Shown here in pieces: positions 4,867 through 9,682 of a stretch of 64,000 nucleotides of DNA. Positions within the stretch are counted from its first letter, which is position 1; each line of letters begins with the position of its first letter. This DNA is from Thioalkalivibrio sp. ALJ12 (GTDB lineage: Bacteria > Pseudomonadota > Gammaproteobacteria > Ectothiorhodospirales > Ectothiorhodospiraceae), in contig NZ_KB899539.1 in the NCBI RefSeq assembly GCF_000378305.1, positions 1 through 64,000 on the forward strand. The letters run 5' to 3'. The translations under genes and the position numbers were made by a program. Below the pieces are notes generated by a model, which searched no databases, was not told where the DNA came from, and saw nothing but the letters and a program-made list of their open reading frames with translations.

Positions 4867-6162
4867 ATGCATAACTTTACGCGACGTCACTTCCTCAAGG
4901 CCTTCGGGATCACCAGCGCGGCCGCCCTGACCGGTATCGGTTTAACCCCTCTTGCTGCGCACAGCGCTGGCAAGGCCCATGTAGTCGTGGTCGGGGGCGG
5001 CACCGGCGGTGCCACCGCGGCGCGCTACCTGAAACAACTTTCGCCTGACATGGCCGTCACGCTGATCGAACCCAACGCCACCTACGTCACCTGCTACGGC
5101 AGTAACTGGGTGCTTGGCGGCTTCGAGAGCATCGAGGCGATCACGCACGGCTACGACAACCTGCGCGACCGCGACGGAGTCGATGTCATACAGGACAAGG
5201 TCATTGGCGTAGACGCCGACAGCCGCACCGTCCGCCTCGAAAGCGGTGACAGCCTGCAATACGACAAGCTGGTCATGTCGCCGGGCATCGACTTCAAGTA
5301 CGAGGACATGCCCGGCATCGAAGAGGCCGATGCCGAGACGATCCCGCACGCCTGGAAGGCCGGCTCGCAGACCGAGCTGCTGCGGGCGCAGTTACAGGCC
5401 ATGCCCAATGGCGGGGTCTACGTCATGGTCGCCCCACCCAACCCGTACCGTTGTCCGCCGGGGCCGTACGAGCGCGTCTCGATGGTGGCGTACTACCTCA
5501 AGACCCACAAACCACGCTCCAAGGTCATCGTCCTCGACCCCAAGGAGAACTTCGCCAAGCAGGGCCTGTTCGAGGAGGGGTGGGCCGAGCACTACGGAGA
5601 CATGATCGAATGGCGGGGCGGCGCCAACGGTGGGCGCGTCGAGGAGATCGACGTCAGCGGCAAGACCGCCCACGCGGACGGTGGCCAGGAGCGTGTCCGC
5701 GCGGACGTGATGAACTTCGTCCCCGCACAGCGCGCCGGGCAGATCGCCCACGATGCGGGCCTCACCAACGAACAAGGCTGGGCCTCGGTCGATCAGCGGA
5801 CCTTCAAGTCCGTCATGGACGACAACATCTACGTGATCGGGGATGCCAGCGTGGCGGGTGCCATGCCCAAGTCCGGTCATGCGGCCAACAACCAGGGCAA
5901 GATCGTCGCGGCGGCCATCCTGCGCGAGCTATCGGGCCAGGAGCCACTAGAGCCATCCTCGGCCAGCACCTGCTACGGCCTGATCACCCCGGACTACGGC
6001 GTCAGCATCGCCGCCGTGTACCAGTACCAAAACGGCGCTCAGGCGGCAGTCGAAGGCTCCGGTGGCGTCAGTCCCCTCGGCCAGACTTCAACCTTCCGCC
6101 GCCAGGAGGCCGAACACACCCGCGCCTGGTACGCCGGCATCACCCAGGACATCTGGGGCTAG
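4867..6162 (+). CDS. fccB: flavocytochrome c sulfide dehydrogenase, FAD subunit
   Basis: Periplasmic flavoprotein oxidising sulfide to sulfur or polysulfide and passing electrons to FccA. The 431-residue product has a Tat signal (RRHFLKAFG), a dinucleotide-binding GGGTGG at 43-48 and a cysteine in YVTCYGSN (C76), at the place of the covalent FAD cysteine of FccB. A redox-active pair is expected from C196 (in PYRCPPGPYE) and C369 (in STCYGLI). The conserved C-terminal domain follows. SQR-type quinone reductases share the fold, but the Tat signal and the adjacent cytochrome favour FccB. Transcription probably ends at the hairpin 6191-6208. Confidence 0.93.
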   Translation: MHNFTRRHFLKAFGITSAAALTGIGLTPLAAHSAGKAHVVVVGGGTGGATAARYLKQLSPDMAVTLIEPNATYVTCYGSNWVLGGFESIEAITHGYDNLRDRDGVDVIQDKVIGVDADSRTVRLESGDSLQYDKLVMSPGIDFKYEDMPGIEEADAETIPHAWKAGSQTELLRAQLQAMPNGGVYVMVAPPNPYRCPPGPYERVSMVAYYLKTHKPRSKVIVLDPKENFAKQGLFEEGWAEHYGDMIEWRGGANGGRVEEIDVSGKTAHADGGQERVRADVMNFVPAQRAGQIAHDAGLTNEQGWASVDQRTFKSVMDDNIYVIGDASVAGAMPKSGHAANNQGKIVAAAILRELSGQEPLEPSSASTCYGLITPDYGVSIAAVYQYQNGAQAAVEGSGGVSPLGQTSTFRRQEAEHTRAWYAGITQDIWG

Positions 6163-6232
6163 CACCCAGCACTTTCCCAACCACTCTGATCGGCGCCTCC
6201 GGGCGCCGAGTTCGTTTACGGGCAAGCCCGCA
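6148..6232 (+). repeat. 85-bp direct repeat, copy 1 (fccB 3' end plus terminator)
   Basis: Covers the last fccB codons (ACATCTGGGGCTAG) and the terminator hairpin. It recurs 442 bases downstream at 6590-6674 with about ten mismatches. Confidence 0.85.
6191..6219 (+). terminator. fccB terminator
   Basis: Perfect 7-bp stem CGGCGCC (6191-6197) and GGCGCCG (6202-6208) with a TCCG tetraloop. The downstream TTCGTTT tract is short, so it is a moderately strong intrinsic terminator 28 bases after the stop codon. Confidence 0.65.
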
Positions 6233-6589
6233 GAAAGTGGGTGTTCTCTACTCGGGGCGAACCGGTAATGGGCGCGCGAGGGATTGACGGGAGAGAACCA
6301 CGCCAGGGTCACACGCATGGAGCGAGCAAGCCTCTCTCCGGATAAGGACGGCGGCACTGGAAGCCTGAAAATTTGCGCGCCATCCTTGCGGATTGAACCC
6401 TGGAAAATCATGGGTGTCCTCTTCTTTATCGGTCCGCAGCGTAATCCCCGGGTCCAACGACCACTGCGTTCTTCTTTCGGCACTTTTTAGGCCGGAAATT
6501 GGCCGTTTAAGCGCCTGTGTTGCCTCGTACTAGGAGGCTAACGCTCTATATTCCGCGATTTATCGAGGTCCGACCCCGTTTTGCACTTG
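6233..6589. repeat. non-coding spacer with dispersed motifs
   Basis: No gene is seen between the two fccB-end repeats. The spacer contains AAAGTGGGTGTTCTCT (6234-6249), ATGGGTGTCCTCTTC (about 6410-6424) and TATCGAGGTCCGACCCCGTT (6561-6580). These are the same motif types found at 80-1370, so the two regions share a repeat family. Confidence 0.5.
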
Positions 6590-6674
6590 GACATCTGGGG
6601 CTAGGCCCCGGCACTCTCCCAACCACTTCGATCGGCGCCTCCGGGCGCCGAGTTCGTTTCCGGGCAGGTCCGCA
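6590..6674 (+). repeat. 85-bp direct repeat, copy 2 (orphan fccB 3' end plus terminator)
   Basis: Repeats 6148-6232, including GACATCTGGGGCTAG and a perfect copy of the hairpin (CGGCGCC 6633-6639, GGCGCCG 6644-6650), but no fccB coding sequence precedes it. It is probably the scar of a duplication followed by deletion. The hairpin could still act as a terminator for transcription from either side. Confidence 0.8.
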
Positions 6675-6690
6675 TTTGGCTTGTAAGCCG

Positions 6691-8307
6691 TTACCTCCCT
6701 GGTAGCGGAAGGTGTTTGCCGCAATGCCCTATCAGCACGCGCGTTGCCTCTTGGTCGATCTCAAAATGAACGCGTATTGTCGAAGTCGGATCGTCAGCCA
6801 CTCCAACCTTGAGGTGCTTAAGCATTTCGATCTCCCGACCGTCAAAATCAAATCTTCGATAAGCTAAATACTGTTTGTTGTTTGTCACTGTGTCAGACTC
6901 CCTTGCCGCGAACTCATTGTTCGTAAAAATGGACCGCGCAGCAGTATCTCCGCCCTGAGTGAAGGCCGATAGATAATCGGTAACGAGTCGCCTGAGCATG
7001 TCCAGTAGACGTCGATTCTGCGCAAAATTCCGAACTTCTCTTGCGCTTTCGATTGCCGACGGTAATACGGCCACTCGTTCGGGGTATATCTCGCGTATTA
7101 GCTCTAGGCACTCCTCGGGGTTTGGTCCCTTAGGGTCTGCTGTAAAGTGAATCAGCTTGTCGGCTATCTCATTTTCTTCCGCTAATTCGATGGATGGCTC
7201 GTTCCTATGGTTGCTGATGTAAACGCTTTGCTTTAATTGCTTCTCGAGCTCCTGTATCTTTTCTTCGCTTTCTAGTAGCGTTAACTCTAACCCTTCTCTT
7301 TGCGTGTGCGCTTCATCGAGGTTCGATGTTAGCTCTGACAGCTCTTCATATACCATTCCAAGCTCATCACGTAGTGTATTATCTGGCTTTTCTGCTAGGC
7401 CTGCGATACGTTTTTCGAGCCTTATTTTTGCTGATAGGGTTCTAACTCCCTCTGGCCGAATTCTGTTTCGCTGTCTTGGAATGTTGGTGTTGTGGCTTAC
7501 ACGCCCTAATATGAAACTCTCTTTCTTGTGAGGCGTGTCGAGCTCTACGGGTAAGTCTTTCCGTAGAATTCGGTGAGTAAAAATGCGTCCATCACTGTGT
7601 GGAACCCTGATTATGTTTATCGCTCCAGCCCAGGCGGCATTTTCTCTCCCAAGAGTCTCCGTCATGTCGTAACGGTTATAATTCTCGGTTGCACCTACAA
7701 CCTGCGCCAGACCAAATAATATGTTTTGAAGTCTTTCGGGTTGTACTGGGTAATTGCCTTCGTTATCGGGGCTAACAAGGATCAGGGGGTAGTTTCGTGA
7801 TGGGTTGTTTATGTCGGCTAAGAGCCCTCGGTATGAATCTACGTCGTTGCCAACCCATTTAACGTAAGATCCAATGCTTCCTGGCGCGAATTGTACGTTC
7901 GGTTCTTCCTGAACGTTTTGAAAAATGAATTTCACTACTCGGGGTTGGCTAGCTTGTACGGGGTCAGAGACGAGGATGCTTTTTTCTTCTGTGTAGACGA
8001 CGCACGAAAATTGGGCGGAGCCTGTGCCGTCATCTTTTAGGCCGAGTTCTGTAACCCACTGCCGACCTGCGACTACTGGGTCGGGGTGCTTTAGGACCCA
8101 AGAATAAAGGTTTATATTATCGGTAATGGCTTTGTCAGTCCGCAGCCATGCGCTTGGGCTACCTCCGGAGCGTTCGCCGGTGGATGTCGAGTCACGTATC
8201 GTAATTCGTTCTCCTAGTTTTTCTGACAGCCATCCCGATATTCCTCGAAGTACTTGGAGAGCTGGGTTGGATCCAACAATCTCAATTTCGTTTGCATAGA
8301 CAAGCAT
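6691..8307 (-). CDS. orphan protein of unknown function with central coiled coil
   Basis: I do not recognise this 538-residue protein. The start chosen is the ATG at 8307 (MLVYANEIEI), 7 bases after GGAGAG; an upstream ATG at 8322 would add five residues. No signal peptide or membrane segment is evident. An N-terminal globular part of about 290 residues includes a stretch around ENAAWAGAINII. A charged, Leu/Glu-rich coiled coil follows (SELTSNLDEAHTQREG, EEKIQELEKQLKQ; roughly residues 310-370). The C-terminal ~60-residue module ends in RVHFEIDQ and VLIGHCGKHL; similar endings occur, from memory, on other accessory proteins of unknown function. Base composition is clearly more AT-rich than the neighbours, suggesting horizontal acquisition. 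A defence or stress role is only a guess from context. Confidence 0.7.
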   Translation of the reverse strand: MLVYANEIEIVGSNPALQVLRGISGWLSEKLGERITIRDSTSTGERSGGSPSAWLRTDKAITDNINLYSWVLKHPDPVVAGRQWVTELGLKDDGTGSAQFSCVVYTEEKSILVSDPVQASQPRVVKFIFQNVQEEPNVQFAPGSIGSYVKWVGNDVDSYRGLLADINNPSRNYPLILVSPDNEGNYPVQPERLQNILFGLAQVVGATENYNRYDMTETLGRENAAWAGAINIIRVPHSDGRIFTHRILRKDLPVELDTPHKKESFILGRVSHNTNIPRQRNRIRPEGVRTLSAKIRLEKRIAGLAEKPDNTLRDELGMVYEELSELTSNLDEAHTQREGLELTLLESEEKIQELEKQLKQSVYISNHRNEPSIELAEENEIADKLIHFTADPKGPNPEECLELIREIYPERVAVLPSAIESAREVRNFAQNRRLLDMLRRLVTDYLSAFTQGGDTAARSIFTNNEFAARESDTVTNNKQYLAYRRFDFDGREIEMLKHLKVGVADDPTSTIRVHFEIDQEATRVLIGHCGKHLPLPGR

Positions 8308-8575
8308 AATGGCTCTCTCCACTGGTCCGGAGACGTTGATGGTTCATCGATTTTGGGAACGGCGAACGCTAAGGCTCGTGGTGAGGGTCGCCTGAGTGTG
8401 GTTGGGTGGTTCGCATGTATAACTGGCCATTCGATTTCTAAAGGTGTTTTGAGTGGGGAGGGTTCGTATCGGTGTAGGCCGTGGTTGGCTCGTGTGATCT
8501 GATGGTGGCACGACGAGTTTGGGGTGGCGAGCAGATCGGTCGATGGATGCGCAGTTCTCGTCCGGAGTTGGCGCA

Positions 8576-9682
8576 TCAGGCGAGAAAGGCGACCGATTTA
8601 ACGAGGGCGTGGGCGCGTAGGCCGGCGCTGAGACGGAGCCGCTCGGTGGAGAGCTGGGTCAACTCCGCCATCAACGTCTGCCCATCGTCCTGGCGGCACA
8701 CTGCGAGTACGCGTGCGGGCCCGTGATGTCCGGGCGCCTCGTCCAGAGACTCGATGGTGACAGGGATGATGTTGAGAATGGAAACGTCCTGGGGCGGCGA
8801 CAGGGCGATGGAGACGTCCCGGGCGTCGATGCGCAGGCGGGCCGGGCGGCCGGCGCCGTTGATGGCGCCGGGGGTAGACGGTACGCGGTAGCGGGCCTCG
8901 GGCGGGCCGAACGGATGCAGGCCGTGGGCATCGGCCGGGCCCAGTTCGCCTTGCAGGACGGAGACGGCGCCTTCGTCGCGGAACAGGGGGGAGTCGGCGC
9001 GGGCCAGCGCCTCGCGCAGGGGTTCCAGGCGTTCGAGCTGGCCGTCGTGCATGAAGGCGACGCGGGTGGCGAGGCGTTCGACCTCGTCCGGGGCGTGGGT
9101 GACGAGCAGGCTGGGGATGCCGGTCTCCTCGGACAGGCGGGCGAGGAAGGGCATGATCTCGCGCTTGGTCTGGGTGTCCAGGGCGTTGAGCGGTTCGTCG
9201 AGTAGCAGCAGGTCCGGGCTGGTGAGCAGGGCGCGGCCGAGGGCGACGCGCTGGCGCTGGCCGCCGGAGAGCTGGTCGGCGCGGCGCTCCAGCAGGTCGT
9301 CGATGCCGAGCAGGCGGGCGACCTCGTCCAGGTGCAGGCGGCGTAGGGGCTCGGGCGTGCGCTTGTAGCCGTAGAGCAGGTTGCCGCGTACGGACAGGTG
9401 CGGGAGCAGGGTGGATTCCTGGAACACGAGGCCGACGCGGCGGCGGTGCAACGGGACGAAGGTCTTGCCGGATTGCCAGGCGGTATCGCGAAAGTGCACC
9501 TCGCCGCCGGGCGGGCGTTCCAGCCCGGCGATGATGCGCAGCAGCGTGGTCTTGCCGCAGCCGGAGCGGCCGAACAGGGCGGTGACGCCCTCCAGCGGGA
9601 AGGCGGCGTCCACGTCCAGCGCGAAGCCGGGGCGTTCCAGCCGGGCCTTGATGCGCAGCGTGTCGGGCTCGGGCCGGGTCAC
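8576..9682 (-). CDS. modC: molybdate ABC transporter ATP-binding protein
   Basis: ATPase of the molybdate importer. It starts at GTG 9682, which overlaps the modB stop (GTGA), giving 368 residues. Walker A GRSGCGKTT, the ABC signature LSGGQRQR, Walker B LLLLDEP and the H-loop THAPDE are all present. The C-terminal third (from about residue 290) fits the TOBE/molybdate-binding domain of ModC. Reading in the same frame upstream of 9682 gives only a low-complexity antisense-like translation inside modB and is not part of the protein. Confidence 0.92.
   Translation of the reverse strand: MTRPEPDTLRIKARLERPGFALDVDAAFPLEGVTALFGRSGCGKTTLLRIIAGLERPPGGEVHFRDTAWQSGKTFVPLHRRRVGLVFQESTLLPHLSVRGNLLYGYKRTPEPLRRLHLDEVARLLGIDDLLERRADQLSGGQRQRVALGRALLTSPDLLLLDEPLNALDTQTKREIMPFLARLSEETGIPSLLVTHAPDEVERLATRVAFMHDGQLERLEPLREALARADSPLFRDEGAVSVLQGELGPADAHGLHPFGPPEARYRVPSTPGAINGAGRPARLRIDARDVSIALSPPQDVSILNIIPVTIESLDEAPGHHGPARVLAVCRQDDGQTLMAELTQLSTERLRLSAGLRAHALVKSVAFLA

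Follow-up and report, generated by a model that had tools for sequence, protein, structure and literature searches.

The window analysed here, a stretch of 64,000 nucleotides from Thioalkalivibrio sp. ALJ12 (contig NZ_KB899539.1, positions 1 to 64,000), carries at positions 6691 to 8307 a gene whose 538-residue product is, by its sequence, a new member of HEC-07, a listed family of candidate defence proteins. We propose, with a probability of about 0.6, that this gene encodes a self-contained immune protein acting by abortive infection, in which an N-terminal sensor holds a RelE-like nuclease. The components of this proposal differ in strength: a role in defence is very likely, a RelE-like effector is likely on the structural models, and RNA is somewhat favoured as its substrate. 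The computational evidence comprises an intact and conserved gene, its family assignment, its mobility, the defence context of its relatives, a domain plan that ends in a RelE-like fold, homology to the Menshen protein NsnC and a recurring His/Arg/His set. New here are the recognition of a hotspot slot in the genus, of relatives in the psu–int interval of P4-like elements, and of a predicted RelE-type effector domain common to Menshen, and the predicted RelE-like tail gives the HEC-07 family a concrete mechanism to test.

The reading frame had been pointed out in an earlier note made from the letters alone, and it proved intact (reading-frame list and translation); we add that its 538 codons lie on the minus strand, from an ATG at 8305–8307 to a stop codon at 6691–6693. 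The chosen start agrees with MLVYAN, the majority start among 30 aligned relatives. Compared with the copy from Thauera terpenica, which is 76% identical at the amino acid level, 13.6% of nonsynonymous and 82.8% of synonymous sites have changed, indicating that the frame is not a chance one and that the protein is under selection. The AT-rich composition reported earlier also holds, as the gene has 48.4% GC against 62.9% in the 5 kb to its left, 69.8% in the 5 kb to its right and 66.7% in the whole window, of which it is the lowest-GC stretch; all 1.6-kb stretches below 52% GC (in steps of 100) start between 6200 and 7200. No sigma-70-like promoter was found between 6100 and 8800.

The protein is not the orphan it had been taken for. 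PADLOC profile PDLC04161 (HEC-07) matches it with an E-value of 6.4e-36, aligning residues 62–533 of 538 to profile positions 86–548 of 553, three further HEC-07 profiles match at 9e-12, 6e-7 and 6e-6, and full-length relatives occur in genomes, plasmids and viral contigs. All 30 aligned relatives match PDLC04161, and all 30 also match the NsnC profile PDLC03912. The accompanying claim that no known domain is present is correct for Pfam-A, NCBIfam and PHROGs, which returned no real domain and only weak coiled-coil or chance matches, but the protein does belong to a family, and a toxin fold can be recognised in the predicted structure of its C-terminal domain. HEC stands for Hma-embedded candidate, and several HECs, including HEC-06, showed antiviral activity, with validation still outstanding for the majority of the related PDC candidates (excerpt of PMC12988326); HEC-05 and HEC-06 are also mentioned in the available part of PMC11411939. 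The PADLOC entry for HEC-07 states no mechanism, and our literature search returned no paper on HEC-07 in the PADLOC sense and no mechanism for it. The HECs were reportedly named in a 2024 preprint by Payne et al., and no published phage test of HEC-07 is known to us.

Single-sequence scans of genome contigs and viral contigs returned no relatives and alignment queries did find them, the loci in both collections being recovered via patterns in the last residues (for genomes, [RKV][IV]xIG[HY]CG[KER]H). There were 55 loci on genome contigs, including those with the C-terminal domain only, and 12 on viral contigs, while no tblastn match was obtained in 50,697 phage records. Among plasmids, 153 records match, 18 of them covering at least 80% of the query, on carriers that span 4.8 kb to more than 600 kb; Pseudomonas accounts for 127 of the 153, full-length ones included. 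In the 96 nearest genomes (E 1e-3), matches were confined to the own genome and to two others, G045, where the whole protein is spread over two contig ends, and G038, which has the C-terminal domain only. The 29 other Thioalkalivibrio genomes, 22 of them at least 90% complete, gave no match, and HEC-07 profile matches were found in 12 of 370 genomes of the class, counting the own genome and several partial matches. The closest relatives come from T. terpenica, a betaproteobacterium (76%), and Ectothiorhodospira shaposhnikovii (74%), which points to horizontal transfer. Similarly, the gene lies below its own flank in GC in 20 of 22 loci (24 were compared and two dropped for short flanks; the count covers the loci outside the viral collection). 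On these comparisons of sequence, the gene is horizontally transferred and mobile.

The AlphaFold2 models gave helix-grip-like, thioredoxin-like and RelE/ParE-type matches along the chain, of which the last provides the candidate effector. This C-terminal domain (residues 378–538; 6694–7176, minus strand) was delimited from AlphaFold2 models, fold searches of the PDB and hhalign comparison with NsnC. Folded alone from 48 sequences, residues 374–538 gave a predicted local distance difference test score (pLDDT) of 92.8 and a predicted template modelling score (pTM) of 0.88. The best 50 of 101 VIA-align rows (Z of 2 or more) are all toxins of the RelE/ParE superfamily, their complexes or Cami1, including about six rows (three S. 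pneumoniae toxin–antitoxin entries, PrpAT, PfiAT and SO_1444–SO_1445) whose titles name no family and which we take to belong to the superfamily. The top rows are 4ltt (Z 8.2) and the YafQ entries 4mmj and 4mmg (Z 8.1, root-mean-square deviation (rmsd) 2.6–2.7, 87 of about 90 residues), and the first 22 Foldseek rows are likewise of RelE/ParE type. The predicted structure and the uniformity of the match list thus point to a RelE-type fold.

Conservation within the domain is concentrated on a few residues that could form an active site. Sixty copies from HEC-07 proteins, NsnC and further carriers were aligned: His498 and Gly527 are present in all 60, Arg512, Gly530 and His532 in 58 and Glu470 in 55, with the conservation of Gly527, Cys529, Gly530 and His532 arising partly by construction, since nearly all of a set of 48 rows came from searches with last-residue patterns. 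In the 12 rows found with hidden Markov models and free of the C-terminal pattern, His498 and Gly527 are present in 12, Arg512 in 11 and both His532 and Glu470 in 10, and Cys529 is absent from all 12. The candidate active-site residues are His498 (codon 6814–6816), Arg512 (6772–6774) and, with the pattern bias just described, His532 (6712–6714), all on the minus strand. For comparison, the active site of YafQ is given as His50, His63, Asp67, Arg83, His87 and Phe91 (PMC7584586).

The same domain links the protein to Menshen. The NsnC profile matches (PADLOC, E 1.1e-15) over profile positions 147–313 of 316 only, and hhalign of the C-terminal domain against NsnC of seven genomes gave a probability of 97.6 and an E-value of 2.6e-12; by these profile comparisons the end domain of HEC-07 is homologous to that of NsnC. 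The His/Arg/His set occurs in most copies of both, whereas the N-terminal part of NsnC is different and HEC-07 has its presumptive sensor half on the same chain, without partner genes. In the four NsnC loci opened (L248–L251), a DUF262-type protein, an ATPase and NsnC follow in that order (by eye), and NsnC measures 311–344 residues in seven full-length copies. In the window, PADLOC recognised no pair of NsnA (DUF262) and NsnB (ATPase) among the 10 slot-flanking genes, ModC giving a marginal NsnB match (0.0026) via its ATPase. A comparable arrangement has been described as the ptuXYZ operon, in which a DUF262 protein and a PtuA-like ATPase accompany PtuZ, a protein with a HigB/YoeB-like BECR C-terminal domain (Gerdes 2025, PMC11980606). 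We take PtuZ and NsnC to be proteins of one kind, in which case the toxin fold of the domain would be independently supported. That study left out many multidomain proteins, one reason being that no antitoxin was identifiable (PMC11980606), and the words HEC, Menshen and coiled-coil are absent from its main text. The ptuXYZ operon, with a DUF262 protein, a PtuA-like ATPase and a PIN'-BECR protein, resembles Menshen nsnABC under another name. A 2025 paper on Menshen may already describe this C-terminal domain.

The domain also occurs at the end of other proteins. Two cyanobacterial proteins of 532 and 539 residues (L137 and L141) combine an N-terminal HIRAN domain (E 3e-10 and 1e-7) with the same RelE-like C-terminal domain, which would put another sensor on one and the same effector, and on large plasmids of Pseudomonas and the Vibrio group it ends proteins of about 675–792 residues (L009, L108, L109, L110 and L111). 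Such carriers suggest that the domain is a plug-in effector. A RelE-like effector with its own sensor in HEC-07 would, if confirmed, connect HEC-07, Menshen and the HIRAN-carrying proteins by way of one effector domain.

For the full protein, the AlphaFold2 model (30 sequences; mean pLDDT 85.7, pTM 0.60) bears out the plan of a globular part, a coiled coil and a small C-terminal module that had been read from the sequence. Residues 1–137 (7897–8307, minus strand) form a predicted helix-grip domain of the START/SRPBCC/PR-10 kind, with VIA-align matches to 5yqj (Z 8.8 over 129 residues), 6cay (Z 8.6) and 7uql (Z 8.2). Residues 138–278 (7474–7896, minus strand) form a predicted thioredoxin-like fold, matched over approximately residues 133–276 at Z up to 10.5 (9epc_O, 110 residues, rmsd 3.7) and by 7asw at Z 9.7; it has no CxxC motif and indeed no cysteine, those of the whole protein being at 102, 400 and 529 only. 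The linker (residues 285–368; 7204–7455, minus strand) consists of two predicted helices, 285–304 and 310–368, the latter of 59 residues, and is coiled-coil-like, with weak coiled-coil profile matches. Profile searches of the PDB returned coiled coils or chance matches only. A library of viral structures gave one match below 0.001 (E 1.7e-4, rmsd 25.7), which was not used.

In the mechanism that we propose, the helix-grip-like and thioredoxin-like N-terminal half would sense an infection cue or bind a phage product as its trigger, and the long helix would link this half to the effector, probably within a dimer or larger oligomer. The protein would be autoinhibited and silent without infection, so that no antitoxin gene would be needed. 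None was recognised near the gene, and the gap between the gene and modC holds short reading frames only, of which the longest on the same strand (120 residues, 8214–8576) overlaps the gene start and, at E 0.1, gave no tblastn match elsewhere among the loci searched; nor did the gap DNA towards modC have a counterpart in other loci, as far as searched. Once the sensor is engaged, the RelE-like domain would act as a nuclease on RNA, the most probable substrate being ribosome-bound mRNA, which its structural relatives cleave; with translation halted the phage could not finish, the anti-phage effect being abortive infection. A plan in which a long helix joins a sensor half to a toxin domain, with neither antitoxin nor partner recognised, fits an abortive-infection switch made of one chain. 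If true, a RelE-like effector attached to its own sensor would take the cell from infection to translation arrest in a very simple way.

Two known kinds of RelE-fold protein help to place this proposal. HEC-07 is predicted to share the fold of the type II toxins YafQ and RelE (Z 8.1 to YafQ), but has no recognised antitoxin, carries a 370-residue N-terminal extension and gives no YafQ profile match. Cami1, the CARF–RelE ribonuclease of type III CRISPR systems, likewise unites a sensor and a RelE domain within a single immune effector, and its cA4-bound form with the 70S ribosome (8phj_X) stands in the VIA-align list at Z 5.1; it reportedly inhibits translation. In contrast to HEC-07, with its helix-grip/thioredoxin-like N-terminal half, Cami1 senses through a CARF domain that receives its signal from the CRISPR system. 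A wider generalisation is tentative and on balance doubtful: HEC-07 proteins would be one-chain receptors in which a START/SRPBCC-like plus thioredoxin-like sensor, responding to a small-molecule or phage-protein cue, frees a RelE-fold ribonuclease with no need for an antitoxin, an ATPase or a second messenger, and the domain, swapped onto HIRAN, NsnC and megaplasmid proteins, would be a general effector module.

Several results weigh against the proposed switch. The Foldseek E-values are weak (best 0.025), and a Z of about 8 is also reached by models that have no clear match, so that among the fold data it is the uniformity of the list alone that carries much weight. At the profile level, hhalign gave a probability of 0.4 for 48 C-terminal domains against 13 YafQ-type sequences and of 0.04 for NsnC against YafQ, and the PDB profile search gave no RelE-type match. 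The last His is missing in two NsnC copies and the Arg in one HEC-07-like protein and one other carrier, and the correspondence of His498, Arg512 and His532 to a RelE-type active site is putative. The matches for the N-terminal folds are middling and show arrangement rather than function. In addition, of 29 full-length loci from outside the viral collection (window excluded), 12 have no recognised defence or mobile neighbour.

The first alternative, which we regard as unlikely, accepts a defence protein but not an RNase: the RelE-like domain would act on gyrase in the manner of ParE, cut DNA or merely bind nucleic acid or the ribosome, the working part lying elsewhere. HIRAN is a DNA-binding domain, and its union with the RelE-like domain in the two cyanobacterial proteins would suit such a role. 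ParE entries, too, have the same fold and appear in the same VIA-align list, although YafQ and H. pylori toxins, and not ParE, head that list. As to activities, ParE inhibits gyrase (PMC11980606) and a toxin of the YafQ family has both RNase and DNase activity (PMC7584586), but the recurring His/Arg/His set suits acid–base catalysis better than pure binding.

The case for defence draws on where relatives sit. The family name itself is reflected in locus L026 (genome G122), with the order HmaA, HEC-07, HmaB and HmaC, all three Hma genes matching PADLOC profiles at E 0. In Pseudoxanthomonas (L131), a PglZ-like gene (by eye) comes next after the HEC-07 gene and BrxL (E 7e-293) after that, while in Marinicella (L114) it comes after hsdR, hsdS and hsdM and in L117 before hsdM and hsdS (all by eye). 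Similarly, a SIR2 protein is next after the gene in Thauera (L112), a HEC-01A ATPase lies nearby in L029 and a PDC-S59-type protein is next after the gene in G045. The window copy resembles HEC-07 as listed in PADLOC in its profile match over most of its length and in being a single gene, and one of its relatives lies between HmaA and HmaB, but it stands alone in a slot beside modC, outside any Hma locus, and the fold assignment is added here.

Members of the family are also carried by P4-like satellites and other viral contigs. In E. coli, 10 of the 5426 complete genomes carry a copy, 99.6–99.8% identical to that of L170. Two of these were opened (GCF_010669025 and GCF_037269235), and in both the HEC-07 gene is the only one between psu (polarity suppression) and the integrase gene of a P4-like element at ssrA; its product (WP_047657979.1) is 30% identical to the window protein over the full length. 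The psu–int interval of P4 has been described as a hotspot and a likely reservoir of antiviral systems (PMC9122126). As full-length homologues sit in E. coli P4-like satellites, the proposed switch is testable in E. coli.

Altogether, 41 full-length loci were tallied by context, namely the window, six G-labelled loci, 23 on genome contigs and 11 on viral contigs, a few of the copies being broken. Beyond the window, 11 have a recognised defence gene nearby, 17 are mobile (11 of them from the viral collection, which are mobile by definition) and 12 are neither, a tally read by eye except for PADLOC-based calls and made with no matched control, with weak calls in L127 (as phage-like) and L128 (as Mrr-like) and apparent near duplicates among the P4-like loci (L168/L169/L176 and L170/L177). 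Homologues are thus not consistently in non-defence contexts, the outcome that the earlier note had named as telling against a defence system, the 12 blank loci notwithstanding.

The genomic position of the window copy points in the same direction. Its slot (6675–8575), which runs from a boundary element to the stop of modC, holds the HEC-07 gene as its sole recognised gene, and the modC side was compared across 14 congeners, of which seven loci were tested, some of the remainder being contig ends. Its content varies: G005 carries SIR2 and HerA there, and reverse transcriptases occupy the slot in G022 (retron type, RT_V) and in G029 (DRT UG14, with type I restriction–modification-like genes, by eye, just past the boundary element); G004 has type I restriction–modification and a DUF262 protein, and G025 has AbiJ-like and PDC-S34-like proteins. 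Eight of the 10 slot proteins tested, from five of the seven loci, had PADLOC matches at E 2e-12 or better (SIR2, HerA, retron RT_V, DRT UG14, HsdR, DUF262, AbiJ and PDC-S34), a proportion that is not an unbiased rate, the proteins having been picked by eye from the reading-frame list; of the other two, one had a marginal match (0.008) and one had none. As a control, the 10 window genes flanking the slot gave one PADLOC match, ModC, through its P-loop ATPase. We read the modC-side slot as a defence hotspot whose present occupant is one single gene, which marks it as a site worth searching for new defence genes in Thioalkalivibrio. The earlier suspicion of an uncharacterised single-gene defence or cargo system in a rearranged spot is therefore borne out as regards the spot and the candidate family, with the function argued from context.

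Mobility admits a further alternative, distinctly less probable than the non-RNase one, in which the gene serves the fitness of the mobile elements themselves (by stabilising plasmids or satellites, excluding rival elements or countering defence) and not defence of the host. Its presence on plasmids of very different size, on P4-like satellites and on other viral contigs speaks for this, as does a toxin fold without a recognised antitoxin. However, there are chromosomal copies in Hma, BREX-like and type I restriction–modification loci, and the chromosomal slot exchanges this gene with SIR2–HerA, retron and DRT genes; phage defence and element fitness are, moreover, not mutually exclusive. That the gene is merely AT-rich cargo with no part in conflict, or encodes a housekeeping protein acquired by chance, is far-fetched, since the 12 blank loci that favour it are set against strong constraint (nonsynonymous 0.136 versus synonymous 0.828), patchy spread through the class (12 of 370 genomes) and repeated defence contexts.

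The slot is bordered on the left by a flavocytochrome c sulfide-dehydrogenase-type gene (4867–6162, named by reading of the sequence) and on the right by the end of modC, with its stop at 8576 (named by eye from ATPase motifs and mod neighbours). The repeat debris noticed earlier beside the gene is a direct repeat of 86 bp, its copies 90% identical, between the left gene and the stop of the HEC-07 gene. Each unit contains the last codons and a terminator-like hairpin of the flavocytochrome-type gene: copy 1, found by repeat search, is the 3' end of that gene itself (6147–6232, plus strand; hairpin 6190–6209), and copy 2 (6589–6674, plus strand) directly precedes the cargo. The idea that the repeats are attachment sites flanking the cargo was rejected, both copies lying on one side of the gene. 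A boundary element of the same kind is present in six of the 14 congener loci, and copy 2 is nearer to those of three congeners (G001, 95%; G022, 94%; G029, 93%) than to copy 1 of its own genome (90%), which fits better with exchange by recombination. We read the cargo as having been exchanged by recombination at shared borders, as these sequence identities would suggest.

Some further observations were made at these loci. Before the boundary element in the window, a short repeat-like stretch (6483–6588) is 72–75% similar to slot regions of G025, G005 and G004. Two slot genes are further candidates, namely a lone 377-residue gene without a PADLOC match in G001 (L095, 1510–2643) and a 493-residue gene in G023 (L099, 201–1682) with a P-loop-like motif and a marginal match to PifA (0.008). 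In L128 (6773–9970), a HEC-07 relative begins 30 bp after a same-strand gene of 1065 residues, a possible multi-gene form. In G011 (L103), the 3' end of modC occurs a second time, about 2.7 kb further along, bracketing an AT-rich gene of 306 residues, the other border of the slot being duplicated there.

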